The notes under the pieces were generated by a model. It saw nothing but the letters and a program-made list of their open reading frames with translations. It had not been told where the DNA came from and did no database searches. From a virus, in the IMG/VR virus record IMGVR_UViG_3300044712_001935, positions 1 to 43,125 of that record: 43,125 bases of DNA; one strand, given 5' to 3'. Shown here piece by piece: positions 1 through 43,125 of this stretch. The translations under genes and the position numbers were made by a program. Position 1 is the stretch's first letter. Every line of letters starts with the position of its first letter.

Positions 1-99
1 CACTCGTATTCGACCGAAAACCTGTGACTCATCGTGTCCTTTCCGGGCATCGCGCCCAACCATCTCGCTCAACCTGCGCTCGTTTCACTCGCCGGACGC
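1..99. repeat. Terminal direct repeat (circular closure)
   Basis: Bases 1-99 are identical to 43027-43125. About 53 bp of this is unique sequence (the 5' end and leader of a cassette gene) and the rest is the first part of an attC site. The simplest reading is an assembly overlap of a circular or circularly permuted molecule with a unique length near 43,026 bp. A true short terminal redundancy cannot be excluded. Confidence 0.9.
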
Positions 100-131
100 C
101 TGCGGCGCCGGGTTAGCTCGGGGCGTTGGGC
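54..131 (-). other. attC site B (3' end of cassette 1)
   Basis: On the minus strand the order is R'' GCCCAAC (125-131), L'' AGCTAAC (112-118), a variable palindrome, L' GTTGAGC (67-73) and R' GTTGGGC (54-60). R'' and R' are perfectly complementary. L'' and L' pair only if one base of L' is extrahelical, which is the strand-selecting asymmetry of genuine attC sites. The core is 78 bp. Its sequence from the R' cut point onward is identical to attC C. Confidence 0.95.
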
Positions 132-388: not shown

Positions 389-451
389 GCCCAACTCGGC
401 GCTCAACTCGGGCCCGCGTAGACGTGGGCCGGTTAGCTGGGTTTGTTAGGC
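389..451 (-). other. attC site A (first site of the array, after DUF5131)
   Basis: Minus-strand order: R'' GCCTAAC (445-451), L'' AGCTAAC (432-438), L' GTTGAGC (401-407), R' GTTGGGC (389-395), with a GC-rich palindrome between L'' and L'. The TAA stop of the DUF5131 gene lies inside R''. This is the promoter-proximal boundary of the array and occupies the place where an attI would sit in an ordinary integron. Confidence 0.93.
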
Positions 452-1552
452 GTCGATGTCCGTGAGCTGCGGGAATCCGTTGTGCTCGTTGCCGTCCAGG
501 AGACGGCCAGCCCGGGCTTTGCCCACCTTCCGTAGGGCCGTGAAGGGCTCCTTGCCGTGCCGGATGTCATAGCCGCAGTGGAGAACCACCCCGTTGGCAT
601 CCAATAGGAGATCTCCCTTGCTCATCCAGGTGCTGGCCTTGTTCACCCAGTGGTTGAAATCCTGGAGCACACAGAACCTCGGCTCACCCGTGGCCATGTG
701 CTCGTGGCTGGCGCCCCACTCCCCCCACTGCTTGAACAGGAAGGGCACCCCGGCCGCGGCGCACTGGTCGCGCAGGCTTCGGGCCCAGACCGGGTGCATG
801 GGGCGGGCGTGGGGGCCGCTCTCGCCGCCGCAGATCACCCAGTCGATGCCATGGGTCGTTTCATATCGGTCACGCTCTGTCCAGACCAGGGAGCCCATGC
901 GGTGCCTGATGTCCACGGGCCCCAGCAGGGGCTCACAGGACAGGAACCGCACGGCCGCGGGCACCTGCAGTAGGGCCGGGATCCGCTGGTCCGCCCGCTC
1001 CTGGTCCTCCACTGTGGTCCCCAGCCAGACGTTCTTAGGGGCACGACCCGAGAGCCACCACCCCAGCCATTCGGCCAGGCGGTCGTTGCAGTCCACCAAG
1101 AGGTCAGGGCGCTGGGCCATCTTCTGTGCCCGGGCCAGGAGCTCGAGCACCTTCTCTGGCCGCTTGGTGAGGATGAGCCAGTCCAGGTGGGGGGTCCGGA
1201 TCATCACGTCCAGGGCCTCGAGGCGGGCCTCGTCCAGGTCGGGGCGGTCCTCGAAGAGGTCCGCCATGGACGAGCAGAACACCCGGAAGCGGGTCCCCTG
1301 CTCCTTAGCCTGACGGTCGAAGCGCAGGGCCTCCGCCGCGGCCTTCTCCACCCGCAGGAGGCGGGGGGCATGGGGGCCCCAGTGGGCGGCCAGGGGGTGC
1401 TGGGTGTTGTTCGTCACACCGGGCAGTGCCGGGTGGAATCGGGCGTCCATCGCCTCGGCGTAGCAGTGCGCACAGGCCGGGCTCACCTTCGAGCACCCAT
1501 GCCAGAAGTTGATGGTGTGGTCGCACCACTCGATCTTCGAATTCTCAGCCAA
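446..1552 (-). CDS. Phage Gp37/Gp68 family protein (DUF5131, radical-SAM-like)
   Basis: The 368-aa protein begins MAENSKIEWCDHTINFWHGC and has the early cysteine cluster C-x6-C-x2-CY (residues about 20-31) typical of DUF5131 phage proteins, which resemble radical SAM enzymes. Later conserved blocks are ILTKRP, VWLGTTVED, FLSCEPLLGP and GGESGP. The function of the family is not established. The start is TTG with a GGAGGA Shine-Dalgarno; it overlaps the end of the preceding gene, so it is translationally coupled to the early operon. The TAA stop sits within the R'' core of attC A, so the gene is either a phage gene beside which the array grew or itself the first cassette gene. Confidence 0.85.
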   Translation of the reverse strand: MAENSKIEWCDHTINFWHGCSKVSPACAHCYAEAMDARFHPALPGVTNNTQHPLAAHWGPHAPRLLRVEKAAAEALRFDRQAKEQGTRFRVFCSSMADLFEDRPDLDEARLEALDVMIRTPHLDWLILTKRPEKVLELLARAQKMAQRPDLLVDCNDRLAEWLGWWLSGRAPKNVWLGTTVEDQERADQRIPALLQVPAAVRFLSCEPLLGPVDIRHRMGSLVWTERDRYETTHGIDWVICGGESGPHARPMHPVWARSLRDQCAAAGVPFLFKQWGEWGASHEHMATGEPRFCVLQDFNHWVNKASTWMSKGDLLLDANGVVLHCGYDIRHGKEPFTALRKVGKARAGRLLDGNEHNGFPQLTDIDA

Positions 1553-4290: not shown

Positions 4291-4481
4291 CGGGGCCCCC
4301 GCTTGGCCATGCGCGCGCTGCGCATGCGGAGCCGCTCGGCGCGCTTGCGGTCCAGGCCGGTGAAGAAGGCGGCCAGGGCCGGCAGCACCCGCGGCCAGAA
4401 GGCCCCGGCGAGCACCACCAGCGCAGCGACCAGCAGGCCCAGGTAGGCGAAGAAGGGGAGGACGGGCAGCAGGAAGGCCAT
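4287..4481 (-). CDS. Small membrane protein (64 aa)
   Basis: The protein starts MAFLLPVLPFFAYLGLLVAAL and is hydrophobic for the first 42 residues, probably two helices. It ends in a strongly basic tail (RKRAERLRMRSARMAKRGPR), giving positive-inside topology for the C terminus. It is coupled by overlaps to genes on both sides. There is no family assignment. A toxic or envelope-modifying early role is possible but unproven. Confidence 0.6.
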   Translation of the reverse strand: MAFLLPVLPFFAYLGLLVAALVVLAGAFWPRVLPALAAFFTGLDRKRAERLRMRSARMAKRGPR

Positions 4482-4696
4482 CAGAGGGATACCTCCATGG
4501 GCAGGGCCTGGTGGCCCAGGGCCTCGGCCTTCGCGGCGTCCCAGCCCTGGATGGCTTCCAGGTCCGAGGGGTCGATGAGTTCAGCCACGTGGAGCTCCAC
4601 GCGCTCCTCGCCCCGCTCCCGGGCCTGGGCCTGGAGGGTGTGCAGGATGCGCAGGCGCTGGATGAGGCGGTCGCCGGCGATGAGCAGGGCCCTCAT
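4481..4696 (-). CDS. Hypothetical early protein (71 aa)
   Basis: MRALLIAGDRLIQRLRILHTLQAQAR... is predicted to be helical and charged, with no membrane segment. The ATG overlaps the stop of the 231-aa gene upstream (ATGA), and the TGA overlaps the next ATG. I recognise no family. Operon position and coupling are the evidence that it is real. Confidence 0.6.
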   Translation of the reverse strand: MRALLIAGDRLIQRLRILHTLQAQARERGEERVELHVAELIDPSDLEAIQGWDAAKAEALGHQALPMEVSL

Positions 4697-5388
4697 GCGT
4701 CACCGCCTTCCTCGAGCAGCTCGGGATCCGGCGCCGGGGGCGCAGGCTTGGCCTTCTTCGGGGCCTTGGGCTTCTCGGCCTTCTTGGCGGCCTTGCGTTC
4801 CGCGATCAGGCGGTTGTTCTTGCAGGACCAGCACTCCTCGACCTTGCCGTCCTCATCCACGAGTTCGAGTTCCCCGCAGCCGCCCGGGCACCGGTGCGGC
4901 CATTCGAAGTCGCCCGACTCGCGGATCTGCTGGATCACCCAATCCCAGGCGTGGGCATTGAATTGGAGGATCGTCATCTGCTCCGAGAAGGCGCGCCACC
5001 GCTCCAGGGAGAAGCCACGGGCCCGGAAGTGCATCCGTGCCGCGAAGAGCAGATCCGACTCCGCCGGCTCCGTCTCGCCGTAGGGCAGCGCCTCGTAGTC
5101 AGCCCCCGTCATCTGGAGGATGGCCTCATCCGAGGTGATGGGCGCGGCCAGCTCGGCGCCCTGGACCGGCGCGCCGGTCGAGTCGAAGAGGGCCGGGCCC
5201 GGCTCAGGCACCTGGTCCTCCAGCTCCACCAGCACGGTGTGGTGCGAGGCCGCCAGCTTGCCGGTGCTCTTGAGGCAGTCCATGGCCTGGCGCAGATGAT
5301 CCGAGGTGGCGCCCGGCAGCTTCAGGAAGGCGATGCCGCGCTCCGCCTTGGCGACAGCGCCGGCGAGGGTGGGGTTGAGGGCGCTCAT
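4693..5388 (-). CDS. Hypothetical protein with zinc ribbon (231 aa)
   Basis: The protein starts MSALNPTLAGAVAKAERGIAF. The central part is acidic and helical. A four-cysteine zinc ribbon (HRCPGGCGELELVDEDGKVEECWSCKNN) lies at about residues 163-190 and is followed by a Lys/Ala/Pro-rich tail. Zinc ribbons in phage early proteins often contact nucleic acid, which is an inference here. The start overlaps the upstream gene (ATGA). Confidence 0.65.
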   Translation of the reverse strand: MSALNPTLAGAVAKAERGIAFLKLPGATSDHLRQAMDCLKSTGKLAASHHTVLVELEDQVPEPGPALFDSTGAPVQGAELAAPITSDEAILQMTGADYEALPYGETEPAESDLLFAARMHFRARGFSLERWRAFSEQMTILQFNAHAWDWVIQQIRESGDFEWPHRCPGGCGELELVDEDGKVEECWSCKNNRLIAERKAAKKAEKPKAPKKAKPAPPAPDPELLEEGGDA

Positions 5389-8803: not shown

Positions 8804-9391
8804 TTGCAAATTCGTACCCTGATCCTCACGCTCCTCGTCTCCAGCTGGGCCATGGCCCAGGGCTTCGGCATCAGCCTGGGGCTCTCCAGCGCCAAGCCCC
8901 GTTCGATCGACGGCACCACTTTCAACAATCAGCTCGGGGCCTACATCGGCGGCTCCTACCGCTGGAAGGAACTCACTTTCGGCCTAGGCTATCGGACCCC
9001 CGGCAAGTCCACCATCACCTACGACGGCGTGGAATCGAAGGACGAATTCAAATGGTCCTTCTCCGAGGCGTCCCTCACCTACGGCATCCCCTTCAGGGGC
9101 GCGGACCTGACCCAGCGGATCCTGTTGGGAGCAGCAGCTCGCCGCGAGACCACGAAGGCTGAGGACACCATCGTCGGCATGAGCGCCAGCGACAACCGCA
9201 ACCGCATCTGGTGGAAGGTGGGCTATGAACTCGAAGGAGAGGTGGATGAAGTCCGCACCAGCCTGGGGCTCTTCTACGCCGGCGCCTCCAAGGAGACCTA
9301 CAACCCCACGAAGGACTACACGCCCCAGGAGGCGCTGCGTCTTTTCGCGCCCACCAGCGAGCTCCAGATCATGGTGACCTTCAGGTTCTAG
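8804..9391 (+). CDS. Outer-membrane beta-barrel protein (lysogenic conversion candidate)
   Basis: The TTG start has a strong GGAGGA Shine-Dalgarno. Residues 1-19 form a cleavable signal peptide (LILTLLVSSWAMAQ, cleavage after AMA-Q). The mature part alternates polar and aromatic strands (ELTFGLGYRTPG, WWKVGYELEG, TSLGLFYAGA), and the chain ends MVTFRF, with the terminal Phe used as a BAM signal. It is a 195-aa small barrel of eight or so strands. Next to the repressor on the plus strand, it is a likely moron gene acting at the surface, for example in superinfection exclusion. Confidence 0.8.
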   Translation: MQIRTLILTLLVSSWAMAQGFGISLGLSSAKPRSIDGTTFNNQLGAYIGGSYRWKELTFGLGYRTPGKSTITYDGVESKDEFKWSFSEASLTYGIPFRGADLTQRILLGAAARRETTKAEDTIVGMSASDNRNRIWWKVGYELEGEVDEVRTSLGLFYAGASKETYNPTKDYTPQEALRLFAPTSELQIMVTFRF

Positions 9392-10560
9392 ACTCCTGTC
9401 AGAGAGCCCTCGACCATCCCCGCCTCCTGGCGGAGTTTGGTGGGCATCACGTGGGCGTAGCGGCGGGTCTGGCGGGAGTTGGTGTGGCCCAGCAGGTCGC
9501 CCACCGCATCCAGCTCCAGGCCCTTCCGCTTCGCCCACGTGGCGAAGGTGTGGCGCAGGTCGTAGATGTGGAAGTTGGTCAGGCCGAGGTGCGCCAACTC
9601 ACCCCGCCGCCGCTGCCACCAGGACTCCAATCCCTTGTAGGGTCCCTTCCGCCCGATGAACACCCACTTCGAGACCTTATGCTTGCCCCTGGCCCTGAGC
9701 AGGGCCACGGCATTGGGGCCCAGGCCGACCAGTCGATCCTTCTGGGTTTTCCTCCCGGTTTTGTGCTGGCTCTTGGGGATCCGGATCACGCCAGCGTCCA
9801 GATTCACCCACTCCCAAAGCATCCGCTGAGTCTCAATCGGCCGCATGCCGGTCATCAGCAGCAGGCGTAGCTGCGCCACCGCCTGCGGGTGCTTCCCCTC
9901 GTTCTCATCCAACCACTCCAAAAAGGCAGCCATCTCGGCATCATCCAGCGCCCGGATTCGCTCATCCTCTTCGTACCGTACGACGTCCAGGCAGGGGTTG
10001 CTGTGCCGTGACCGCTGCTTCCATTTCTCCGCGGTGCCGAGCGCCGACGATAGCACCGCCAGCGCCATGTTGGCCGCGCGTGGGTGATCCGCCAGCGACT
10101 GGTGGACCTCCTCCGCATCCTTCTCTGTCACATCGGCCACCAGTCGCGACCCCAGGGTAGGGATGAGCACTTTGCGAACGATGCGGTCGTAATCCTTCTG
10201 TGTCTTCCCGCTCAGTTTGGAGACATGCTTCGCCAACCACTCCGTCAGGAACTCCTTCATGGTCTGCGCGGCCTTCAGGATACGCCGTTCAATCCCCGGA
10301 TCCTCGCCACGCGCAACCGCCCCGGCCGCGGCCTTCGCCTTCACTCGCGCCGCAGCCACAGGCATGAGGGGGAACCTGCCGAGCGTCGCCCCTCCATCTC
10401 GGTTGTTCAGGCTCCAGCGCTGGATGAAGGAGATGCGGCCGCCCGGGTTCACCCGCACACCGAACCCTTCGATCTCCGTGTCCATCACCTCATAGAGCTT
10501 CTCTTCCGGGCGGAGGGAGAGCAGGTATTCTTTGGTGATTCGATTTTCACGGGCTGCCAT
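9388..10560 (-). CDS. int: Tyrosine integrase (P4-type, site-specific recombinase)
   Basis: The 390-aa protein has an arm-binding domain at the N terminus (DUF4102-like, KEYLLSLRPEEKLYEVMDTEIEGFGVRV), a SAM-like core-binding domain (about 100-200) and a catalytic domain. Catalytic residues visible: Arg240 (TGMRPIET), Lys in HKTGRKTQKDR, Tyr333 in place of the usual first His, Arg336 (DLRHTFATWA), His359 (LLGHTNS) and nucleophile Tyr368 (TRRYAHV). It lies beside attP and should mediate integration and excision at tRNA-Thr. Its stop overlaps the convergent outer-membrane gene by four bases. Confidence 0.93.
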   Translation of the reverse strand: MAARENRITKEYLLSLRPEEKLYEVMDTEIEGFGVRVNPGGRISFIQRWSLNNRDGGATLGRFPLMPVAAARVKAKAAAGAVARGEDPGIERRILKAAQTMKEFLTEWLAKHVSKLSGKTQKDYDRIVRKVLIPTLGSRLVADVTEKDAEEVHQSLADHPRAANMALAVLSSALGTAEKWKQRSRHSNPCLDVVRYEEDERIRALDDAEMAAFLEWLDENEGKHPQAVAQLRLLLMTGMRPIETQRMLWEWVNLDAGVIRIPKSQHKTGRKTQKDRLVGLGPNAVALLRARGKHKVSKWVFIGRKGPYKGLESWWQRRRGELAHLGLTNFHIYDLRHTFATWAKRKGLELDAVGDLLGHTNSRQTRRYAHVMPTKLRQEAGMVEGSLTGV

Positions 10561-14277: not shown

Positions 14278-14424
14278 CTATTGCGGCCGAGGTAGGATCT
14301 GGCCAAGGGTCGGAAGAGGCGCGGCACCACCACCAGATGTGGGGGGAGGCCCAACCTGCACCTTCACAACCCGCGGGAACTTCATGGAGCCGTTGGGCAC
14401 GAGAGCCTGCTGGATATTACTCAT
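14278..14424 (-). CDS. Small Pro/Gly-rich tail-associated protein (48 aa)
   Basis: The ATG overlaps the stop of the preceding 279-aa gene (TATGAGTAA) and gives MSNIQQALVPNGSMKFPRVVKVQVGPPPTSGGGAAPL. The size, overlap and position suggest a real coupled gene, possibly a fibre chaperone or a linker. There are no homologues I can name. Confidence 0.5.
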   Translation of the reverse strand: MSNIQQALVPNGSMKFPRVVKVQVGPPPTSGGGAAPLPTLGQILPRPQ

Positions 14425-15256: not shown

Positions 15257-17817
15257 TAGGCCTCCTCAATTCGATGGGTGAGGGTCACGGTGACAGGCCC
15301 CGTGGCCCCCTTATTCGTCACCCGCAGATACCCGACATCGGCCGGCGCGGTGTCCATGTTTTGGAACTCCGCTTGCGCAAGATCGAAGGCCAAATGGGTG
15401 GCATCGGTGATGACTTCAAGGAAGCAATCGGCAGGATTGGCTGGGCGTACCCCCTCGGACCTGCCTGCGTCTGCCGTGCGCAGGGCTGCGGTCGAGTAGA
15501 GCCTCACCCGCGCGGCCTTGTCGGTGGTCAGGTTGTAGAGCTTGGCGGTCTTGCAGATGGAGATATCAATGTCGGCCGAGGTGCCTGTGGCGAGTGAGGC
15601 AGAGGTCCAGGAGCTGGTGGACCGGGACACGAGGCCCGAGGCTCCATCTGCACCCTTCTGGGCCATCAGGTTCCAATAGGTTGGAGAGGTATCCGGGGGG
15701 TGCCCTGTCCCTGCAAGGATGCAAACGTAGGAAGACCCGTTGTGGGAGACCGTATCGTCCACCACGTAGGCATGGGCCGAATCGAATGCACCATGCCAGG
15801 TGTACCCTCGGCCCGCTGGCCCAGTGACGCTTGTGCCCGTGGCGCCGGGGGCTCCCTGCTCGCCAGCTCCGCTCGATCTGGTGGTCGAAGCACCTGCTGT
15901 GATGAACCAGACCCTGCCGTTCAAGGCCTGGTCCGCAGGCACGGTGTCGAGCACCCCACGCAGGATCCCGGAGAACGAGAAAGTGCCGTCTCCATTATCC
16001 GTGCAAGTCGTCCAACCGACGATCTCACCAGTGGAGGGGAACCAGGCCAGGTTGGCACCCTGGTTCAGTCCATCAGCATTGGTGGATAGAGCCACCAGGC
16101 TGGCGAGGTCCGAGCCCCCACCCAGCACGAACCCCACGGGATCCAGCGCCGCCGTCCTGGAGGAGTAAGCTGCGGTCAGAAGACCGGTGGGCGTCATCCC
16201 ACCCAGCATGCCGGTAAGCAGGTAGCCAGACCCTTCGTTGGTCCAGATCTCGGCCCCGATGGTGATCTGGTCCGCGCGCGCGCCCATGGCCAGCACGTAC
16301 CTGGCCTCTCCGGTCACCCAGTGCGGCGCCTCCATCATGGCCTGGGCGGTACAGGGAAGGGCGGCGGTCACGGGATCAACCCATCCCCCGGGCGCCGGGG
16401 GTGCATAGGCCTGCACGCCGACAGCGAATACATCCTGGGCAAACTCAACCGTGATCTTCCCAGCGCCCAGGGTCCCATAGCGGATGTTCGTCACACGGCA
16501 GACCAGGCCGCTCCAGCCATGCGCCGCGAAGGTCAGCTTGAACGGGGAGCCCGGGCGGAGCTGCCAGGCCTTCCGGTTCAACTGGAGCGTCCCCTTGGCC
16601 AAGGGTGATGCGAGCACGCGGATCTCCCTGGCCGCCACGTACTGTGCCAGGGCGGCTTTGGTGAGCCCCAGGAATTCGAGAATTGTGTCCCCTCCCTCGC
16701 CGCGCGCCCAATAATTCCCGGCATCCTGATCCTGCGCCGTGCGCACCGTGTAGGCCTGCGACCGATCCACATAGCGGATCACCACCCGGTTGAGCGTGTC
16801 CGGAGGCGCGGCCAGGGTGACCTCGGGCGCATCCAGGAAGTCGGGCTCGGAGAACTCGGGCAGGGTGGCTGGGTCGTAATCCGCACGAATGAGCTTGAGG
16901 GAGGTCAGGCCGGAGGAAGGGTCCGTATAAAGCACACCATCGATGTGCCGGAGAATTTCCCCCATCCAGGTGTCGGCAGCCTGGGCACGGTCCATCAGCA
17001 GCGAGATGCCGAAGCCCTCGCTGTAGAGTTTGTTGGCCGCGGACTGGAAGGTGGCTAGGTCCAGGGTCCCGATAGATTCGCCACAGCCTCCGGCCTCCCG
17101 GGGCTGGGTGAGGATGTACACCAGGCCGTAGGCCGGATTGGCATCGCCATCGATGTTCTTCTTGGTGGCGTCGAGGCCTGCGGCACAAGGACAGCAGCGC
17201 AGCACCCAGGCCCATTCTTTCGGGTAGTTGCTGGTGCCCAGGTAGAAGTCCTTGAGCACGGCGTAGCAGACTCCCCGCCAGGCGGGCGCAGGGGCTCCAA
17301 ATTTGGAGGCAAGGTATGGGTCCGGAGCCTGGGTCGCGCTGCCGAAATAGAACCGCAATACACCACCCAGGCCGCCCTCCTTCTCTTCGCCGCCAAAGAG
17401 TTCAGGAAGGCTGATGGTGATATCCGTGCCTGATTCGGAGAACAGGGTGGCGACGCTGGCTCCAGCATCCTTGAGGCTCTTATCACCCACAACGATGTCC
17501 ACCAGCTCATCGATCGGGCCCACCGTGAGGGCCTGCTGCATGCCCATGCGGTAGCGGTAGCCGATGGTGGTGCGGTGACCCGTCATGGCGTTGGAGACTC
17601 GCTTGATCGGCTCTGTGATGAGGGCGCCCCACCAGGTGATGTTCGGTCCCTTGCACTTGCAAGTTCCCAGCACCATGGGGATCGGGCGGCCCTCCTCTGC
17701 CGTAGGGACCTGGAATTCGCCCAGGGACGACGGCTCGGCATCCTTCGGCTTGGGCGCCAGCATCGCCGAAACGACGGTGGAGATAACCATCATGGCCAGA
17801 GCGACCCAGAACCCCAT
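15256..17817 (-). CDS. Tail tip / host-specificity protein with carbohydrate-binding domain
   Basis: The 853-aa protein starts MGFWVALAMMVISTVVSAMLAPKPKDAE (hydrophobic N terminus). It continues with blocks seen in GTA/lambda J-like tail tip proteins (AEEGRPIPMVLGTCKCKGPNITWWGALITEPIK, FYLGTSNYPKEWAWVLRC). Residues about 652-671 are collagen-like (GEQGAPGATG...GPAGRG), then a CBM5/12-like chitin-binding module (YTWHGAFDSAHAYVVDDTVSHNGSSYVC, about 672-724) and a beta-rich C-terminal domain. It would form the tip and bind the host surface sugar. It overlaps its neighbours by one to four bases. Confidence 0.82.
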   Translation of the reverse strand: MGFWVALAMMVISTVVSAMLAPKPKDAEPSSLGEFQVPTAEEGRPIPMVLGTCKCKGPNITWWGALITEPIKRVSNAMTGHRTTIGYRYRMGMQQALTVGPIDELVDIVVGDKSLKDAGASVATLFSESGTDITISLPELFGGEEKEGGLGGVLRFYFGSATQAPDPYLASKFGAPAPAWRGVCYAVLKDFYLGTSNYPKEWAWVLRCCPCAAGLDATKKNIDGDANPAYGLVYILTQPREAGGCGESIGTLDLATFQSAANKLYSEGFGISLLMDRAQAADTWMGEILRHIDGVLYTDPSSGLTSLKLIRADYDPATLPEFSEPDFLDAPEVTLAAPPDTLNRVVIRYVDRSQAYTVRTAQDQDAGNYWARGEGGDTILEFLGLTKAALAQYVAAREIRVLASPLAKGTLQLNRKAWQLRPGSPFKLTFAAHGWSGLVCRVTNIRYGTLGAGKITVEFAQDVFAVGVQAYAPPAPGGWVDPVTAALPCTAQAMMEAPHWVTGEARYVLAMGARADQITIGAEIWTNEGSGYLLTGMLGGMTPTGLLTAAYSSRTAALDPVGFVLGGGSDLASLVALSTNADGLNQGANLAWFPSTGEIVGWTTCTDNGDGTFSFSGILRGVLDTVPADQALNGRVWFITAGASTTRSSGAGEQGAPGATGTSVTGPAGRGYTWHGAFDSAHAYVVDDTVSHNGSSYVCILAGTGHPPDTSPTYWNLMAQKGADGASGLVSRSTSSWTSASLATGTSADIDISICKTAKLYNLTTDKAARVRLYSTAALRTADAGRSEGVRPANPADCFLEVITDATHLAFDLAQAEFQNMDTAPADVGYLRVTNKGATGPVTVTLTHRIEEA

Positions 17818-18608
17818 CAGATGCCTCCTGAGCCGAACGGCTGGCGAGTGGGGATGCGCTTGAATCCCAAGTGGTTGGGGAGGTTGTTATATCGATTGGT
17901 GCAGTCATCCTCGGTCCCCTGGCATCCCGGAAAGGCCGAAACCTCGGATCCCGCGGCCAGCGACGGAAGCGCGGACAAGAGCGTCAGCACCGCCCCCACA
18001 TGGCCTGTCACCGTCCGCTGATCTCCCCCGTATTCAATCCAGCCGCCCTTGAAGTGCCCATCAGTGAAGGCCGCGAAGGCGGATGAAGTGACCGTCAGGC
18101 CCGCCACGGCGGACAGGGTGGCAGGAACTCGCCAGGCGGATCGGTCGGGGCCGCAGCGGGCCGTGCCCCATCGGAGCGGGCACTGGCACTGGAAGGTCAG
18201 GGCCGGGATGGGTTGCTTCCAGATCGCCTGGCGCGGCGCGCAGATGAACTCGCAGGCCTCCTGGAGCTTCGCGCTCATGATCCGGCCCGTGAAGACGCAG
18301 GCCGTTTCCGTTTCGCCATCGTGGCCACACGTCACGATCAGGCTCACGGGGGTGGACGGCGGGCCCTCGCGGAAGAGCTGGGCGACCGGGTTGTCGAGTT
18401 CCAGGGTGACGGTCACGTTGCCACTCGAGGTCTCGCCGTTTTGATCCACCTCCGTCCGCAGAACCACGGCTGGCTCATAGATCTGGCCCTGGTAGAGGCG
18501 GGGCGTATCCCCACTCGTTTGGAGCCAGATGGTGGCTCCCAGGTTCCAGCGATAGAGCTCAAAGGGTTCGCCGCTGTAGTCGCTGCGCTCACGGGCGTCG
18601 AAGGTCAT
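17817..18608 (-). CDS. Tail protein, DUF2163 / BR0599-like
   Basis: The 263-aa protein starts MTFDARERSDYSGEPFELYRWNLGATIWLQTSGD and has the DUF2163/BR0599 features: an N-terminal DYSGEP-type block, a Cys-containing centre (FQCQCPLRWGTARCGPDRSAW) and C-terminal PGCQGTEDDCTNRYNNLPNHLGFKRIP. Cysteine positions are those used for an Fe-S cluster in related baseplate hub proteins, though this has to be shown. Genes around it match a GTA-like tail tip order. Confidence 0.82.
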   Translation of the reverse strand: MTFDARERSDYSGEPFELYRWNLGATIWLQTSGDTPRLYQGQIYEPAVVLRTEVDQNGETSSGNVTVTLELDNPVAQLFREGPPSTPVSLIVTCGHDGETETACVFTGRIMSAKLQEACEFICAPRQAIWKQPIPALTFQCQCPLRWGTARCGPDRSAWRVPATLSAVAGLTVTSSAFAAFTDGHFKGGWIEYGGDQRTVTGHVGAVLTLLSALPSLAAGSEVSAFPGCQGTEDDCTNRYNNLPNHLGFKRIPTRQPFGSGGI

Positions 18609-34322: not shown

Positions 34323-34528
34323 GCGGAGACCCCCAGTTCGCGCAGCAGCCTCTCCTCCGCTTGCGCTCGGGTCTGCCCGAACTGGAACCAGACATACGCC
34401 CCAGGCTCATCCACCGGATCCCTCCCGAGGATCGGCCCCATCTTGGCCCAGGCCACAAAGCCGCCGCTCTTACCTTCGGCGGAGGCGAGGTGGAAGGGGG
34501 GGGCGTGGCGCTTCTCGATGTTCTTCAT
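34319..34528 (-). CDS. Small protein between TerS and TerL (69 aa)
   Basis: The ATG overlaps the terminase small-subunit stop (ATGA) and gives MKNIEKRHAPPFHLASAEGKSGGFVAWAKMGPILGRDPVDEPGAYVWFQFGQ. The C-terminal end overlaps the TerL start by four bases. It may be a terminase accessory protein, but no family was recognised. Coupling on both sides is the main support. Confidence 0.6.
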   Translation of the reverse strand: MKNIEKRHAPPFHLASAEGKSGGFVAWAKMGPILGRDPVDEPGAYVWFQFGQTRAQAEERLLRELGVSA

Positions 34529-35314: not shown

Positions 35315-36400
35315 TCAGGCCCCCTCTGCCGCACTTTTGCGGCTGGTCAATCGAGCCTTCGAGGCTGCCCCCTTCTGTGCCTGGGCAATGCGCCCCAGGT
35401 CCACACCCAGGTAGACGGCTGTGGTGCGGATGTCCGCATGCCCCAAGGCCGCCTGGATGTCCTGGATGCTGGCCCCGTTCTCACTCATCCACGTGGCGAA
35501 GGTCGCCCGAAGGCGGTGGGGAACCAGGCGCGGCACATCGACCGCCCGGCAGGCAGCCTCGAAGACTCGCTTCACCCGCCCGGGTGTGACCAACGCGCCG
35601 GCCATGGTGGGTGCCATCCATCCGCAGGGCTGGGCCGCGGCCTTCAGATCCTCAAGAATCCAAGGTGGGATGGGCACAACCCTAGGTTCCTGGCTCTTCG
35701 TCTCGCCCACGGTGTAGACCTCGCGTTCCAGATCCACCCATTCCCAGCGGGCGGCCCTCGCTTCACCACCCCTCAATCCCAGGCCGATCATCAGGCGTAG
35801 CACCATGCCGATACTCGGCTCATGCTCGGTGAGCGCGTCCACCTCGGCCAGCCAATCCTCGGCCTTGGCGGTCGGGATGAGCAACTTCGGGCGCTTCTTC
35901 GGCTTCAGTTCCTTCAGGGTGAAGGGCATGGCCCGGATCATGCCGCGGCCGATGGCCCACTTGCAGATGATGCGGATGTAGGTCAGCCACTGATTGGCCA
36001 TGGAGATGGCGTGGGTCTTCAGGAAGACCCCGCGCTCATCTTGTAGCTCCTTGTTCGTCAACCCGGTGAGCTTGAGGGCGGCCAAGTGCCCCAGGTGCAG
36101 CCTGCCGCAGCGTTCCATGTTGGCCAGGTGGCTGGCGCTCTTCGACAGCACGTGGTCAGGGTGATTCACCCATTGCACGAAGGCCTCCCCCAGGGTGGGT
36201 TCGGGCTCCTCCCCACGCGACCGCATGAGGGCCTTCTCGTATTTATCCAGCGCCACCCGCTCGGCCTTCGCCGAGTTGCGGAGTGGCTCCTTGGTGGTGC
36301 GAGTCCAGCGCTGCTTGGCGATCTGAAATTCAAAGTACCAGAAGCTCCCCCTGGGGAACATGGTCACTGGGCCACAGCGGTAGCGCCGCTCGGTCACCAT
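35315..36400 (-). CDS. Second tyrosine recombinase (phage integrase family)
   Basis: The 361-aa protein has the full catalytic set: Arg210 (IGLGLRGGEARAARWEWVDLE), Lys235 (TKSQEP), His295 and Arg298 (VPHRLRATFATW), His321 (ALGHADI) and nucleophile Tyr330 (TTAVYLGV). It lacks the extra domain that defines integron integrases, so it is not IntI. It lies away from attP and is coupled by a seven-base overlap to the gene upstream at the end of the replication block. It may be an alternative integrase or dimer resolvase. Confidence 0.88.
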   Translation of the reverse strand: MVTERRYRCGPVTMFPRGSFWYFEFQIAKQRWTRTTKEPLRNSAKAERVALDKYEKALMRSRGEEPEPTLGEAFVQWVNHPDHVLSKSASHLANMERCGRLHLGHLAALKLTGLTNKELQDERGVFLKTHAISMANQWLTYIRIICKWAIGRGMIRAMPFTLKELKPKKRPKLLIPTAKAEDWLAEVDALTEHEPSIGMVLRLMIGLGLRGGEARAARWEWVDLEREVYTVGETKSQEPRVVPIPPWILEDLKAAAQPCGWMAPTMAGALVTPGRVKRVFEAACRAVDVPRLVPHRLRATFATWMSENGASIQDIQAALGHADIRTTAVYLGVDLGRIAQAQKGAASKARLTSRKSAAEGA

Positions 36401-39015: not shown

Positions 39016-39254
39016 CACGCCCTCCCGTCGATGAGGGCCAGACGCTCAGCCTCTTCTCTTTTGGCGGCCTCGAAACGGGCCCGCGCCATGGGCAGAGCGC
39101 TCCTGGCCGCCTTTTTGAGCTTGCGAGGCGTGCGCTGTGGCCATTTGGGATAGGCCAGCTGCTCAAGAACCGAGAGGACGAGTTGCTTGGCCACGAGGCG
39201 CTGGATCGTGTGAACCACCATGGCGAAAGGAGAAGGGCTTTTCTGGGTATCCAT
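39015..39254 (-). CDS. Hypothetical protein (79 aa) before initiator
   Basis: An ATG after GAGGGGG overlaps the DUF3850 stop (TGATG). The protein MDTQKSPSPFAMVVHTIQRLVAKQLVLSVLEQLAYPKWPQ... is basic and helical, with a K/R-rich centre (RTPRKLKKAARSALPMARARFEAAKREEAERL). It could be a nucleic-acid binding protein; this is only a composition-based guess. Confidence 0.6.
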   Translation of the reverse strand: MDTQKSPSPFAMVVHTIQRLVAKQLVLSVLEQLAYPKWPQRTPRKLKKAARSALPMARARFEAAKREEAERLALIDGRA

Positions 39255-39688
39255 CACACCCCCTCGAATTCACAGAACTGCTCAACCACCCGAGCCTCAG
39301 CCTCCCGAGCCTCCTTGACGCCCCGGGCCGCCGCCAGGAGGGCTTCCTCCTCGACGGCACCGAAGACCGGCTTCACACCCAGCAGCTCGGCCACCTGGTG
39401 CAGCAGGGCCCCCAGGCGGGCCTGCTCGGCCGCCAGGGTGGCGTCCTCCACCCCCAGCACCACCAGGCCATCGGGGAGGGCCAGCGGCCCCGCCGAGCGG
39501 ATCACGCAGGTGGTGCGCCGCAGGAGCTCCCGGCCTGTGTAGGAGCGGCTGAAGGGATCCCACTCCTGGAGGCAGAGCGTGTCCCCAGCTGCGAAGCCGC
39601 GGTCATCCACGCGGATCTCGAAGGGCTTCAGGCCGCCCAGCGAGGCATTGAACGGCTCGGGCCAGGTCTTAAGGAAGTGGGTGGTCAC
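39254..39688 (-). CDS. DUF3850 / ASCH-like RNA-binding protein
   Basis: The GTG start gives MTTHFLKTWPEPFNASLGGLKPFEIRVDDRGFAAGDTLCLQEWDPFSRSYTGRELLRRTTCVIRSAG, a clear DUF3850 (ASCH-superfamily) pattern: KxWPEPF, GxKPFEIRxDDRGFxxGDxLxLxEWD, YTGREL. ASCH domains often act on RNA. A helical C-terminal extension of about 60 residues (EEEALLAAARGVKEAREAEARVVEQF) is unusual for the short family. It is the first gene of the block after the cassette array. Confidence 0.8.
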   Translation of the reverse strand: MTTHFLKTWPEPFNASLGGLKPFEIRVDDRGFAAGDTLCLQEWDPFSRSYTGRELLRRTTCVIRSAGPLALPDGLVVLGVEDATLAAEQARLGALLHQVAELLGVKPVFGAVEEEALLAAARGVKEAREAEARVVEQFCEFEGV

Positions 39689-39827
39689 CGTCCCACCTCG
39701 ATCCGCCGATTTTTAGTACGCATTCGCATGATGGAGTCCCAGGGGATTTGCAGCATTTACGTTCAAAAAAGACTGATTAGGCGAACTGGGAGGGGGCGTC
39801 CGAGTTCGTCTAATACAAAGTTGGGCG
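39689..39827. other. Boundary region: array end, terminator-like hairpin and degenerate attC K
   Basis: On the minus strand, R'' GCCCAAC (39820-39826), then ATTAGAC (39808-39814), an 11-of-12-bp stem (ATTAG-CGAACT to AGTTCG-CTAAT), and five bases later TTTTTT (39765-39770). It can be read as an attC lacking R', or as a hairpin terminator ending the array transcript, or both. The rest, 39689-39764, precedes DUF3850; TACTAA (complement of 39713-39718) is a weak -10 candidate. Confidence 0.55.
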
Positions 39828-39920
39828 CTAGTCGCGCTTCCAAAACCGTTTCGACTTCAGGGCGCGCCGCATCTTCCGGTTCGTCCAGATCAACTTCCAG
39901 ATTTCACTTGGTTTCAACAC
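39828..39920 (-). CDS. Cassette 10: very basic micro-protein (30 aa)
   Basis: A GTG with AAGGAGG five bases upstream gives MLKPSEIWKLIWTNRKMRRAL... ending KSKRFWKRD, with about ten Lys/Arg in 30 residues. The TAG stop lies one base before the GCCCAAC core, exactly as in cassette 1 and cassette 7. The strong ribosome site and the cassette position support it; size alone cannot. It may bind DNA or RNA. Confidence 0.55.
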   Translation of the reverse strand: MLKPSEIWKLIWTNRKMRRALKSKRFWKRD

Positions 39921-39940
39921 CGTGCCCTCCTTGTCGCGCT

Positions 39941-40025
39941 GCCCAACCTGCCGCTGAACCTCGCTCGTTTCGCTCGCTGGACCCCTGCGCTACGCTCCGG
40001 GGCCGGTTAGCTTCATTCGTTATGC
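39941..40025 (-). other. attC site J (3' end of cassette 9)
   Basis: Minus-strand order: R'' GCATAAC (40019-40025), L'' AGCTAAC (40006-40012), a large GC-rich palindrome, L' GTTCAGC (39953-39959) and R' GTTGGGC (39941-39947). R'' supplies the TAA stop of the DUF551 gene. Length 85 bp. R'' and R' differ in one pairing position. Confidence 0.9.
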
Positions 40026-40421
40026 CGCTGGCCCAGCGGGTCGGGGCATCCAGTGGCTGGGCTGGTGAACCTCTTCCCACCCAGGAGACTCGAACCCGTC
40101 GCGGCCCCAATTCACCCAGCGAGTCCCATCCCAGTGGCAGTCAAGTTCGCGGCTCTCGGCCCAGTCCACATAGAGGTCGATCACAGTCCCGTCAGTGGGC
40201 GCGGTTTCGATGGGCTGCCATCCGACCAGGCCATTCAGGGCGTGCTCCAGCATCACCTTGGCCTGGATCGCTGTCAGGAGGTTCGTGCCAACAGGCCACA
40301 GGCCCGGCCACGGCTTCAGCTTCTCGGGATCGAAAGTGATCCCACAGTCGGGGTTGAAGTCCTTGGGCAGTTTCCAACCAAGGAAACGATCTACGGCGTG
40401 GTCAATCAGAGTTTTCGTCAT
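40020..40421 (-). CDS. Cassette 9: DUF551-containing protein (133 aa)
   Basis: MTKTLIDHAVDRFLGWKLPKDFNPDCGITFDPEKLKPWPGLWPVGTN... has an N-terminal helical part (about 1-60) resembling phage early proteins with the FLGWKLP motif. A C-terminal DUF551 domain follows (GWQPIETAPTDGTVIDLYVDWAESRELDCHWDG...HQPSHWMPRPAG, about 69-130). DUF551 is common in phage genomes and its function is unknown. The ATG has AAGGAG; the TAA stop lies in attC R''. It shows that a typical phage gene circulates as an integron cassette. Confidence 0.85.
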   Translation of the reverse strand: MTKTLIDHAVDRFLGWKLPKDFNPDCGITFDPEKLKPWPGLWPVGTNLLTAIQAKVMLEHALNGLVGWQPIETAPTDGTVIDLYVDWAESRELDCHWDGTRWVNWGRDGFESPGWEEVHQPSHWMPRPAGPAA

Positions 40422-40452
40422 GCTATCTCCTTCGATTTTCCCGTTGCACGCG

Positions 40453-40510
40453 GCATAACCAGTCGCTCAGCGTCGGACCCTATCGGGCCGAGCTAGCTCC
40501 GAAGTTGGGC
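40453..40510 (-). other. attC site I (3' end of cassette 8)
   Basis: Minus-strand order: R'' GCCCAAC (40504-40510), L'' AGCTAGC (40492-40498), a short palindrome, L' GCTGAGC (40465-40471) and R' GTTATGC (40453-40459). Spacing between boxes (12 bases) equals that of the other sites, but L'' and L' have one base change each. At 58 bp it is at the short end of known attC lengths. Confidence 0.82.
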
Positions 40511-40749
40511 GCGTACACGCTCACGCACGCCCCTTGGGATTGGAGCGAGTGCTTCATTTCAGGTGTGGGAGACTGGCCCAGCTCGCGCAATACGGTGGAG
40601 ATGCCGGCGTTGCCCACCCGCCGTCCCCCTTCACCGGGCTTCATCTGTTCAAGTGCAGGAGCCTGGCGCTGGTCGTTCATTTTGGCGGAGGTGCCAGCGT
40701 TGCCTGCCCGCCAACCCCTCCTCCCACGCTTCAGCCGTGCTTTCATCAT
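40480..40749 (-). CDS. Cassette 8 protein with internal 30-aa repeat (89 aa)
   Basis: The best start is ATG at 40749, with AAGGAAAT upstream: MMKARLKRGRRGWRAGNAGTSAKMNDQ... The protein has an imperfect 30-aa repeat, GRRGWRAGNAGTSA and GGRRVGNAGIST, matching a 35-bp DNA repeat 90 bp apart. It is Arg/Gly-rich. The frame runs through the R'' core of attC I and stops at 40480 inside the site. No family was recognised; a plus-strand reading of this segment is open but has no good ribosome site. Confidence 0.45.
   Translation of the reverse strand: MMKARLKRGRRGWRAGNAGTSAKMNDQRQAPALEQMKPGEGGRRVGNAGISTVLRELGQSPTPEMKHSLQSQGACVSVYAPNFGASSAR
40594..40718. repeat. Imperfect 35-bp duplication in cassette 8
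   Basis: Bases 40594-40628 and 40684-40718 match at about 28 of 35 positions, with a spacing of exactly 90 bp. Because 90 is a multiple of three the duplication is kept in frame in the minus-strand gene and produces the GNAG repeat. Confidence 0.75.
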
Positions 40750-40772
40750 ACCAATTTCCTTTTTCATTGGGC

Positions 40773-40839
40773 GTCCAACCAGCTCGCTCAACCCGGACCC
40801 GTGCGCAAGCGCCCGGTCCGGTTAGCTCGAAAGTTGGGC
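40773..40839 (-). other. attC site H (3' end of cassette 7)
   Basis: Minus-strand order: R'' GCCCAAC (40833-40839), L'' AGCTAAC (40821-40827), GGACCGGGCG palindrome, L' GTTGAGC (40786-40792) and R' GTTGGAC (40773-40779). Its R''-L'' half has the same spacer (TTTCG) as sites F and G. Length 67 bp. Confidence 0.93.
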
Positions 40840-40840
40840 G

Positions 40841-41122
40841 CTACATCGTCTTGCTGATTTGGTGAACCCTCATCTGGTAGCGGTGGTCCGCACCATCTGC
40901 GAGATCGAACTGCCAATCGTTAAATGCCGCCTCCATCTCCGCGATGTGGGCACACAAACCCTCGACCACCGAGACTTCCCCGAAGGCCCTGGGTGATTGC
41001 TTAATTTCTTCCAGGGTCACACCCCCATAGGTGCGCTCAACTGGTCGCTCAACACGGACCCCGCCTGCATCCATCCCGCACACGCAGGGGTGGTTATGGC
41101 AATCATTGCAAACTCCGCTCAT
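40841..41122 (-). CDS. Cassette 7: Cys-rich N-terminal protein whose start lies inside attC G
   Basis: The ATG at 41122 has AAAGGAGA upstream and gives MSGVCNDCHNHPCVCGMDAGG..., a metal-binding-type Cys/His cluster. The segment RVERPVERT is encoded by the L' and R' boxes of attC G (41035-41053). The rest (GVTLEEIKQSPRAFGEVSVVEGLCAHIAEMEAAFNDWQFDLADGAD) is helical. So the first 27 or so codons belong to the upstream attC loop, and excision of cassette 6 would remove them. TAG lies one base before attC H. Confidence 0.75.
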   Translation of the reverse strand: MSGVCNDCHNHPCVCGMDAGGVRVERPVERTYGGVTLEEIKQSPRAFGEVSVVEGLCAHIAEMEAAFNDWQFDLADGADHRYQMRVHQISKTM

Positions 41123-41168
41123 CGCTCGTTCTCCTTTCCGGCGGGGCCGGTTAGCTCGAAAGTTAGGC
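41035..41168 (-). other. attC site G, long form (134 bp), overlapping a gene start
   Basis: Minus-strand order: R'' GCCTAAC (41162-41168), L'' AGCTAAC (41150-41156), stem GGCGGGG matched by CCCCGCC next to L', then L' GTTGAGC (41047-41053) and R' GTTGAGC (41035-41041). Box spacing is 12, as elsewhere. The terminal loop is about 90 bases and holds the Shine-Dalgarno and start of the next gene. R' is not the standard GTTRRRY complement of R''. Confidence 0.7.
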
Positions 41169-41357
41169 CGTGATTCTGCTTTTTCGGTTGTCCCGAGAAC
41201 GCTTCGCTTGGGCCTTCTTGACCGCCTTGGTCCTCTCGGTTGCCCAAACATAGAAGAACTCACAGCCGTCAACATCTTTGTAGTCCTGTTTGCTTCCGCC
41301 TGAACTCCAACCCCCGTTCGGGAATCTCACAACAAGCCATTGCTGCTCCATGCGCAT
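41163..41357 (-). CDS. Cassette 6: hypothetical protein (64 aa)
   Basis: AAAGGAGAGAG then ATG gives MRMEQQWLVVRFPNGGWSSGGSKQDYKDVDGCEFFYVWATERTKAVKKAQAKRSRD. The N-terminal half is beta-like and the C-terminal 20 residues are strongly basic. The TAA stop is within R'' of attC G. No family was recognised. Confidence 0.75.
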   Translation of the reverse strand: MRMEQQWLVVRFPNGGWSSGGSKQDYKDVDGCEFFYVWATERTKAVKKAQAKRSRDNRKSRITA

Positions 41358-41380
41358 CTCTCTCCTTTCGTTGTGGTGGG

Positions 41381-41446
41381 GCCTAACCGGCTCGCTCAAC
41401 GCCGGACCCAAACTGCGCTTGGTCCGGGTTAGCTCGAAAGTTGGGC
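41381..41446 (-). other. attC site F (3' end of cassette 5)
   Basis: Minus-strand order: R'' GCCCAAC (41440-41446), L'' AGCTAAC (41428-41434), palindrome CCGGACC...GGTCCGG, L' GTTGAGC (41394-41400) and R' GTTAGGC (41381-41387). Length 66 bp. All four boxes are near-consensus with the L' extrahelical base. Confidence 0.94.
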
Positions 41447-41452
41447 CGCTCG

Positions 41453-41701
41453 CTAGAAGCTCTTTCCGCACCTGGCGCAAACCGGCGCGACGGTGGGCGG
41501 TTGTTTTTTCCCTGCTTTGTTGAAAACAGTGTTTCTGAACTCTTCGCACAGGCGGTCCAGATCCTCGGGCTCCAAATCCGACAGGGGAACCCTGGAACCA
41601 TTGGGGTCGAAACCCTCCTGCCTGGGCTTCGCGCCTAGTTCCAGAAGGACAAAATTAGGAACTTGGAAGGGTTTGAGTGACACCTTCAATGTGGCCTTCA
41701 T
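41453..41701 (-). CDS. Cassette 5: small protein with C-terminal CxxC (82 aa)
   Basis: The ATG follows GAAGGAG and encodes MKATLKVSLKPFQVPNFVLLELGAKPRQEGFDPNGSRVPLSDLEPEDLDRLCEEFRNTVFNKAGKK. It ends in PVCARCGKSF, half of a zinc knuckle. The layout (beta strand, acidic helix, Cys pair) resembles small zinc-binding proteins, but no family was assigned. The TAG is just before attC F. Confidence 0.75.
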   Translation of the reverse strand: MKATLKVSLKPFQVPNFVLLELGAKPRQEGFDPNGSRVPLSDLEPEDLDRLCEEFRNTVFNKAGKKQPPTVAPVCARCGKSF

Positions 41702-41731
41702 GTTTTCTCCTTCAATTGGTTTCGATTCGCG

Positions 41732-41789
41732 GCCCAACAGGTCGTTCCAACCGGACGCCTGCGGCGCCTGCTGAACTCCGAAGTTAGCC
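41732..41789 (-). other. attC site E (3' end of cassette 4)
   Basis: Minus-strand order: R'' GGCTAAC (41783-41789), L'' AGTTCAG (41771-41777), palindrome GGCGCCGCAGGCGTCC, L' GTTGGAA (41745-41751) and R' GTTGGGC (41732-41738). L'' and L' pair with mismatches, so it is a diverged site, though box spacing is kept. It shares the GACGCCTGCGGCGCC palindrome with sites B and C. Confidence 0.85.
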
Positions 41790-41996
41790 GTCGTGCGACA
41801 GCATCAAATCCGCATAGGTGCTGCTGTCGGTGGTTCTGAGGTTGAGTGGCGACACCTCGCGGACTTGATTCGACAGGCCACGCCCATCCCCAAGCCACAC
41901 CTCGCAAAGCTCTCCCTCTTCGTTTTCTTCCGGCCAATCCTTGACGAGTTCTTTCAACTCTCGAACCGTCAGGCCATTTTCAAATCTGGTTGGCAT
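41784..41996 (-). CDS. Cassette 4: acidic hypothetical protein (70 aa)
   Basis: MPTRFENGLTVRELKELVKDWPEENEEGELCEVWLGDGRGLSNQVREVSPLNL... is acidic, mixed alpha/beta. It resembles small phage proteins with the LTVRELKELVKDWPEENEDGE motif, though I cannot name them. The Shine-Dalgarno GGAGGG is supplied by the spacer between L' and R' of attC D, about 12 bases upstream. The TAA is in R'' of attC E. Confidence 0.78.
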   Translation of the reverse strand: MPTRFENGLTVRELKELVKDWPEENEEGELCEVWLGDGRGLSNQVREVSPLNLRTTDSSTYADLMLSHDG

Positions 41997-42002
41997 GATC
42001 AC

Positions 42003-42089
42003 GCCTAACCCTCCGCTCAACCTTCACTCGCTTCGCTCGTCGGACCCGTCAGGCTGCGCCTGCCGGCCCGGGTTAGCTTTCCGTTAGCC
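42003..42089 (-). other. attC site D (3' end of cassette 3)
   Basis: Minus-strand order: R'' GGCTAAC (42083-42089), L'' AGCTAAC (42072-42078), a long GC-rich palindrome, L' GTTGAGC (42015-42021) and R' GTTAGGC (42003-42009). Its spacer between L' and R' contains GGAGGG, used as a ribosome site by the next gene. Length 87 bp. Confidence 0.92.
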
Positions 42090-42791
42090 AGCCTTCATCA
42101 GGCGGCCCGTGAGCCTTTCAAATGCAAGATGAGCCACCGCTGGAATCTGGATGTTCCCAAGGGCAACACGCTCGCCCATCCCGCGGGGATACCCACGAAC
42201 CACTCGCACCACCGCGGGTTCAACGGCCCACCAAGAAGGTCCGACAGAGATCGGCTCTTCCCATGATGCTTGCCGGGTTGCTTCGCATCGGCAGCCAGCA
42301 GTGTGGGCAACAATCCAAGTGCGTTTTCTACGATGGGGAGCGCCAACCTGGTCCGCGCTGAAACAACCCCATTCCGCATCGAACCCCAGCGCGGCCAGAT
42401 CCCCGAGAACGCCGTCGAGTCCCCGAACAGGGAGGTCAACGGTGTTCTCCACGAACACGAAATGTGGTCCCACCTGGCGAATGATTCGTGCCATTTCCCG
42501 CCAGAGGCCGGAGTGTTCGCCTTCGAGTCCGGCCCTGTTGCCTGCGGATGAGATGTCAGTGCAAGGGAATCCTCCCGCCACGATGTCAACCCGTCCACGC
42601 CAAGGTATTCCGTCGAAGGTTCGCACGTCATCCCAGATGGGGAACCATGGCAGGGCCTCGTCTCGTTGGCGCTGGAGCAGGACCTGGCGACAGTGCGAGT
42701 CCAACTCGACGGCGCCAACGCAGACATTTCCTCCCAGGATTCGACCGAGGATTCCTCCCCCGATTCCAGCAAAAAGGTGTAGCTCACGCAT
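42084..42791 (-). CDS. dcm: Cassette 3: DNA cytosine-5 methyltransferase (orphan)
   Basis: The 235-aa protein contains motif I LHLFAGIGG (residues 4-12), motif IV GGFPCTDIS with catalytic Cys77, motif VI FVFVENTVDL (Glu115-Asn116) and motif VIII QVGAPHRRKRTWIV (about 148-161). A motif IX/X region (GERVALGNIQIPAV) follows. The target-recognition part is short. No restriction enzyme is adjacent, so it is an orphan that could modify phage DNA against host restriction. ATG with GAAGGAGA; TAA in attC D. Confidence 0.93.
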   Translation of the reverse strand: MRELHLFAGIGGGILGRILGGNVCVGAVELDSHCRQVLLQRQRDEALPWFPIWDDVRTFDGIPWRGRVDIVAGGFPCTDISSAGNRAGLEGEHSGLWREMARIIRQVGPHFVFVENTVDLPVRGLDGVLGDLAALGFDAEWGCFSADQVGAPHRRKRTWIVAHTAGCRCEATRQASWEEPISVGPSWWAVEPAVVRVVRGYPRGMGERVALGNIQIPAVAHLAFERLTGRLMKAG

Positions 42792-42820
42792 TTTTCTCCT
42801 TCGATTTTCAGTCGGCGGCT

Positions 42821-42898
42821 GGCTAACCATCTCGCTCAACCTGCGCTCGTTTCACTCGCCGGACGCCTGCGGCGCCGGGTTAGCTCGGGGCGTTGGGC
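42821..42898 (-). other. attC site C (3' end of cassette 2)
   Basis: Minus-strand order: R'' GCCCAAC (42892-42898), L'' AGCTAAC (42879-42885), L' GTTGAGC (42834-42840) and R' GTTAGCC (42821-42827). From the R' cleavage point on it is identical to attC B over more than 70 bases. The two neighbouring cassettes therefore carry the same site, but different genes. Confidence 0.95.
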
Positions 42899-42899
42899 A

Positions 42900-43058
42900 C
42901 TATCGCCATCGCGTGATTTCGTATCTCAACTTGTGCTTCTTGCAGTAGCGAAGAACACGTTTGATCTTTCGCCAGTGAGATTTGAAGAATGTCTCTTCGG
43001 TCATCACATCCCAGTCCATCGGGGGGCACTCGTATTCGACCGAAAACCTGTGACTCAT
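42900..43058 (-). CDS. Cassette 2: small basic protein (52 aa)
   Basis: ATG with AAAGGA gives MSHRFSVEYECPPMDWDVMTEETFFKSHWRKIKRVLRYCKKHKLRYEITRWR. An acidic aromatic N-terminal part is followed by a strongly basic helix. The gene's 5' end and leader are repeated at window positions 1-53 because of the circular overlap. The TAG is two bases before attC C. Its function is unknown; a nucleic-acid or inhibitor role is possible. Confidence 0.75.
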   Translation of the reverse strand: MSHRFSVEYECPPMDWDVMTEETFFKSHWRKIKRVLRYCKKHKLRYEITRWR

Positions 43059-43125
43059 CGTGTCCTTTCCGGGCATCGCGCCCAACCATCTCGCTCAACC
43101 TGCGCTCGTTTCACTCGCCGGACGC

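Follow-up and report, generated by a model that had tools for sequence, protein, structure and literature searches.

The window analysed here is the entire IMG/VR record IMGVR_UViG_3300044712_001935 (43,125 bases), a tailed temperate phage genome that contains an array of ten attC sites and ten small genes. Positions 1-99 of the window repeat positions 43027-43125, and this 99-bp terminal repeat joins the ends so that the array (39.8-43.1 kb plus 0-0.45 kb) forms a single circular stretch of ∼3.7 kb, as the original prediction, made from the letters alone, had proposed. We consider it likely that the array is an integrase-less phage integron, comprising an attI-like site and ten inverted cassettes, that is fed in trans by the integron integrase (IntI) of the host. 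By its sequence it appears to consist of an attI and phage-specific inverted cassettes common to unrelated phages, and not simply to be a piece of a host integron. Ten neighbouring attC sites without an integron integrase also place the window among the clusters of attC sites lacking integron integrases (CALINs), for which at least two nearby sites suffice.

attC sites and cassette polarity

The attC sites were located with two covariance models: R1, trained only on attCs from chromosomal integrons of the putative host family (Acidobacteriota), and R2, for which 150 attC matches in 23 other viral contigs (window excluded) served as the training set and which was run with filters off. R2 identified exactly ten sites in the window, all on the plus strand, with scores of 35-55 bits (E 1.5e-11 to 1.2e-6), while the next-best match anywhere had an E-value of 0.11. 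R1 recovered the stronger sites on the same strand, with a best E-value of 7.6e-9. The attC observation is real and lies far beyond chance; the covariance-model check proposed with the original prediction thus returned scores far from random, and its ten attC sites stand, but the eleventh, described there as degenerate, was found by neither attC model and is attI-like (see below). Each of the ten sites carries R'', L'', L' and R' boxes plus an extra base, as in a complete integron, and for attC J and attC K the minus strand, which is the bottom strand, adopts the canonical R''/R'-L''/L' hairpin, in which the R boxes pair, the central spacer stays unpaired and extrahelical bases protrude. A gapless position weight matrix built from host attCs proved too rigid, finding one site, and covariance models were used in its place; an Rfam search gave no match. 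Outside the array, a weak palindromic pair of R boxes at 14349-14398 (R1 E 0.045, R2 E 0.12) is possibly a stray core site or a chance occurrence.

Read in the direction of the gene, a canonical attC has its extra base in L''. One extrahelical base sets the recombining strand, and cassettes are normally inserted such that their genes are expressed from the promoter Pc (PMC2727003). At every site in the window the extra base falls in the left arm read on the plus strand, and both models matched that strand; the attC top strand is therefore plus and, since all ten genes are on minus, the cassettes are inverted relative to their attC sites. The canonical arrangement, an open reading frame (ORF) on the attC top strand with its attC downstream, was thus found for none of the genes (10/10 on the opposite strand). 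The ten small minus-strand genes of the original prediction were recovered by the ORF and Shine-Dalgarno (SD) scan. Its placement of an attC at the 3' end of each gene did not hold, given the plus polarity of the sites, and its box labels, with the extra base in L', were those of the minus strand; on the proper (plus) strand the base is in L''. On the covariance-model strand, extra bases were assigned to L'' in 133 sites versus L' in 10.

An SD-type motif preceded nine of the ten genes, being marginal only for the gene at 41784-42002. In most cases the gene starts ∼20-30 nt from the R'' edge of its cassette's own attC, and the stop codon often lies within the R' box of the preceding attC. Measured from R' to R', the units span ∼200-810 bp, close to the first estimate of 259-818 bp at the upper end and smaller at the lower.

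The same polarity was found well beyond the window. A first, strict attC-pair pattern had no match in viral contigs and was replaced by a relaxed pattern, chosen for attC sequence only, which yielded 42 viral loci from 41 contigs, most with multi-site arrays. Twenty-three contigs were taken nearly whole and contained 189 sites by covariance model and hidden Markov model (HMM); they carry many terminase, helicase and structural genes, range from 47 to 70% GC, and for the most part encode no proteins in common with the window. Polarity was counted after a duplicate contig and an internal repeat had been removed, which left 22 other viral contigs. In these, SD-led ORFs opposed the attC strand in 101 intervals and shared it in 5, and inverted ORFs formed the majority in 22/22 contigs. 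Full architecture, defined as an SD-led ORF that starts ≤60 nt from one site and stops at the other, occurred 66 times inverted and never canonical in these contigs, versus 0 inverted and 23 canonical in host chromosomal arrays (118 intervals; Fisher p 8.5e-22). In those host arrays, 75-77 of 82-83 intervals had their longest ORF on the attC strand. Among homologous cassettes, substitutions favoured the third codon position of the opposite-strand ORF (10/6/33 mismatches). These comparisons indicate that inversion is general for this attC type. MW202573, a phage CALIN published by Qi et al. (2023; PMC9892861) and scanned here (2069-3738), likewise has attC sites on minus and coding sequences on plus, an inversion unremarked in the text of its paper. 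A count of co-directional flanking genes was not used, as long spurious ORFs in GC-rich contigs made it too noisy, and blastn of single attC sites against cultured phages returned no attC-like matches.

The attI-like site and its shared flank

The array opens with an attI-like sequence, ACTGATTAGGCGAACT...AGTTCGTCTAATACAAAGTTGGGC, that matches the attI regions preceding intI in host-family genomes, e.g. CAGGACTAGGCGAACTCC...ATCGTCCAATTCAAAGTTAGGC. Two elements are held at about equal spacing in the window and in host attIs, and the core and its position also match. An HMM built from 16 host attIs was searched over ∼1 Mb of phage contigs and, at E <0.05, matched only at array starts on the attC strand: in G114 (both repeat copies), G088, G095 and the window. 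It also matched loci L193, L196, L194 and L191 in host genomes, and a near-identical core is present in L196, a Mu-like prophage. The cassette genes of the window point towards this site, and their orientation excludes sense expression driven by Pc.

Further evidence came from phage G095 (IMGVR 3300044673_000108), which is otherwise largely unrelated to the window yet 98.9% identical to it over ∼1.5 kb up to the attI R box. Beyond the R box the two carry different cassettes; a shared flank followed by differing cassettes is what insertion at attI would predict. The supposed degenerate attC is thus better described as a candidate attI, on the grounds of the HMM core match, the host-like spacing and the point of divergence from G095, and an attI at the start of the array, as in a complete integron, is indicated by sequence, spacing, position and shared junction.

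G095 itself has two separate attI-like sites and two arrays, at 1472-4962 and ∼39.5-41.6 kb. The 99-bp overlap that closes the window's circle lies inside a cassette and attC and is probably an assembler k-mer; the arrays of G095 and G097 likewise run to the ends of their contigs, a pattern that would fit assemblies breaking at attC repeats. In G114 (55216 bp) the array region is present twice (5.6 kb at 100%), probably from a circular genome assembled more than once round.

Integrases, hosts and exchange of cassettes

By the integron-integrase profile (TIGR02249, cut-off 265 bits) no IntI was found in the window, whose only two tyrosine recombinases scored 35 and 53 bits, in agreement with the original prediction; the intI of a complete integron is therefore missing. 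Full IntI was present in 2 of the 41 array-bearing viral records, G097 (49131-50069; 413 bits) and G099 (17558-18496; 428 bits), in each case beside an attI-like boundary and an inverted array. These two are apparently complete phage integrons, with intI and the cassette genes pointing the same way.

Relatives of the window's terminase were found in two Acidobacteriota metagenome-assembled genomes (MAGs; 87% and 75%) and a single-contig genome of the same family, G060 (72%), with more distant ones in other genomes. A search for IntI in host genomes, suggested at the outset, found the full protein above the curated cut-off in 46 of 77 genomes of the host family, which makes capture of cassettes in trans by a host integron, as first proposed, plausible; that they are plain host-integron cassettes is not supported, given the inverted genes and the array's own attI. 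The short attC type also occurs in host-family genomes. One of these, G017, combines a chromosomal IntI integron with an array of the phage type, carried by prophage L196 (G017:C2:324500-344000), which encodes TerL, a Mu-like transposase and DUF3164 and contains an attI and an inverted cassette array. At another locus, L195 (G013:C10, 6-604), two inverted short-attC cassettes lie within a canonical host array, consistent with exchange between the two pools. No array is present in phages G002 and G004 or in the prophage of G060.

Exchange between phages was apparent in the related phages G090 and G110, which have one 428-bp unit in common at 100% identity, bounded exactly R' to R'. The gene of this unit recurs in G125, an unrelated phage, at 99% and in G097 at 84%, and an internal duplication in G095 also starts at an R' box. 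A 52% homologue of the window's methyltransferase lies between two attC sites of an unrelated phage, G115. When the cassette proteins of phages were compared with host arrays, the single match lay over attC-derived sequence, and the comparison was not used.

Within the phage genome the array is placed between a replication/recombination region (helicase loader, replication initiation, RNA-binding protein) and the phage gene phrog_2045 (Table 1). The remainder of the window encodes terminase, portal, major head and tail genes, a repressor, an anti-repressor and an integrase, bearing out the temperate phage context first proposed. A tRNA-Pro call at 34367-34463 overlaps the gene adjoining the terminase and is probably spurious.

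Table 1. Coordinates of the cassette array, its attI-like site and other phage features in the window
Feature	Position	Strand	Evidence
attI-like site: TTAGGCGAACT element and core TCGTCTAATACAAAGTTGGGC	39772..39826	+	host-attI HMM finds core at 39806-39826
attC B	39941..40026	+	R2 36.5 bits, E 5.8e-7
attC C	40453..40510	+	R2 45.9 bits; R1 27.4 bits
attC D	40773..40839	+	R2 53.6 bits; R1 34.1 bits
attC E, long loop; contains SD and start codon of 40841-41122 gene	41035..41168	+	R2 55.3 bits
attC F	41381..41446	+	R2 49.6 bits
attC G	41732..41789	+	R2 35.3 bits
attC H; 95% identical to attC in prophage L196 (host-family genome)	42003..42089	+	R2 39.6 bits
attC I	42821..42898	+	R2 41.1 bits
attC J; first 46 bases repeated at 43080-43125 (terminal overlap)	54..131	+	R2 45.3 bits
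attC K, last site	389..451	+	R2 52.1 bits; R1 38.6 bits
Cassette gene 1, 30 aa basic protein, SD and GTG	39828..39920	-	
Cassette gene 2, 133 aa, stop within R' of attC B	40020..40421	-	no Pfam/PHROG match
Cassette gene 3, 89 aa	40480..40749	-	
Cassette gene 4, 93 aa	40841..41122	-	
Cassette gene 5, 64 aa, stop within R' of attC E	41163..41357	-	
Cassette gene 6, 82 aa	41453..41701	-	
Cassette gene 7, 72 aa; start codon abuts attC H, marginal SD	41784..42002	-	weak PHROG match, unknown function
Cassette gene 8, C5 cytosine DNA methyltransferase, 235 aa	42084..42791	-	PF00145 E 5.7e-26; phrog_363 E 1.6e-53
Cassette gene 9, 52 aa	42900..43058	-	
Cassette gene 10, 78 aa	133..369	-	
Phage RNA-binding gene (phrog_986), left flank	39254..39688	-	flank 98.9% identical with phage G095 as far as attI
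Phage gene phrog_2045, right flank	446..1552	-	stop codon within R' box of attC K
Phage integrase, not IntI	9388..10560	-	
Second tyrosine recombinase, not IntI	35315..36400	-	conserved in array-less relatives

Alternative explanations and implications

An ordinary CALIN, that is, a fragment of a host chromosomal integron acquired by the phage with its canonical cassettes, would fit the recognition of the window's attC type by the host-trained R1, the existence of integrons in the host family and the publication of phage CALINs (PMC9892861). Host genes, however, lie on the attC strand, as opposed to 10/10 on the other strand here, and the window's attCs measure 58-87 nt (one of 134) with mostly short loops, compared to ∼124 nt for most host attCs. 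The array moreover has an attI of its own at the start, no remnant of intI was found, and we regard such an origin as improbable.

Alternatively, the hairpins could have lost recombination and been taken over by a phage operon as RNA or transcription elements (terminators, or sites for processing or translation coupling). The mRNA hairpin does have the bottom-strand sequence, and stops within R' boxes, together with an SD and start ∼30 nt from the next hairpin, amount to a compact operon design; yet the attC-specific asymmetric extra base is conserved, units common to phages run exactly R' to R', cassettes differ beyond a shared attI, and two array-bearing contigs encode an IntI adjoining the array, all of which leave co-option distinctly improbable.

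It is very unlikely that the contig is a phage/bacterial-integron chimera or a prophage within a host array, even though the overlap that closes the circle falls in the array and includes half of an attC, and the array has a GC content of ∼58% versus ∼66% for the phage. The overlap contains ∼50 nt of unique cassette sequence, the inverted genes are unlike any host array, G095, from another sample, shares the flank-attI junction, and the same arrangement recurs in many unrelated phage contigs and prophages. That the second tyrosine recombinase, present in addition to the phage integrase, serves as the cassette recombinase is likewise very unlikely and was rejected, as it is conserved (63-69%) in the array-less relatives G002 and G004 and gave no full IntI match (53 of 265 bits).

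Several observations weigh against an integrase-less phage integron fed by host IntI. The HMM match to the window's own attI is weak (13.8 bits, E 0.049) and carries weight because of its position and its sharing with prophages. Inversion is not universal, given that the arrays of Tetrasphaera phage TJE1 and of Vibrio and Shewanella prophages appear canonical. In the cassette shared by G090 and G125 the gene is kept while the attC loop differs and the boundary falls 18 nt into the attC, which simple transfer by IntI does not explain. Cassette exchange was documented among other phages; for the window it shows only through the flank shared with G095 (the attI-side junction). The presumed host was assigned through MAG contigs that carry terminase relatives (87% and 75%), and transcription of the array from an early promoter is suggested by gene order, the repressor lying at 7.5 kb on plus and the early genes on minus through the array.

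An integrase-less phage integron would operate as follows. The attC polarity runs away from attI (plus strand), as IntI chemistry requires, and the IntI of an infected host may insert and excise cassettes in trans at the phage attI and attC sites. IntI is SOS-induced in known systems, and would thus be active at prophage induction. The phage early operon, on the minus strand from the repressor region, would transcribe the array from its far end to attI, with new cassettes arriving farthest from the promoter. A host cassette of the ordinary kind would then be read in antisense and bring the phage no benefit, so that only cassettes with inverted genes would be useful to it; phage cassettes, conversely, would be silent in a Pc-driven host array. 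Inverted cassettes could then circulate as a phage-specific pool of small early genes, e.g. methyltransferases. As a further possibility, transcription may expose the coding strand, and in this array that strand is the recombinogenic bottom one.

Phage CALINs are known. Qi et al. (2023; PMC9892861) described attC clusters without an integrase whose small cargo genes include methyltransferases, like the window, and IntI1 recombined 5/6 of the phage attCs tested in that study. Its text reports no inverted polarity and no attI in intI-less phages save the defective Shewanella prophage M16-3, unlike the window with its ten inverted cassettes and attI. The sedentary chromosomal integrons of the host family (Acidobacteriota) share the attC box sequences and the attI core with the window, but encode IntI and have mostly ∼124-nt attCs with genes on the attC top strand. 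An attI plus attC array in a phage context is also shared by G097, G099 and the published Vibrio and Shewanella prophages; G097 and G099 differ in having IntI beside the array, their cassettes being inverted nonetheless, whereas the published prophage arrays are host-derived and canonical. Neither systematic inversion nor an attI in intI-less phages (save the Shewanella prophage of PMC9892861) was found described in the open-licence full-text literature, where absence is not proof, and the architecture of the window appears to be new.

Integrons have been treated as bacterial devices that occasionally ride phages. These data suggest that phages run their own version, with an attI but no integrase and with cassettes flipped for expression by the phage and not by the host integron. 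More broadly, we lean towards the view that tailed phages of many lineages share their own backwards-built cassette pool, moved on phage attI sites by host IntI in trans and occasionally by a phage IntI. If true, this would account for the site-precise exchange of small early genes among unrelated phages, the genes encoding methyltransferases and unknown small proteins with a possible counter-defence role. It would also offer a simple rule, in which a gene opposite its attC marks a phage-type as opposed to a bacterial cassette, and makes the service of host IntI to phages in trans testable.

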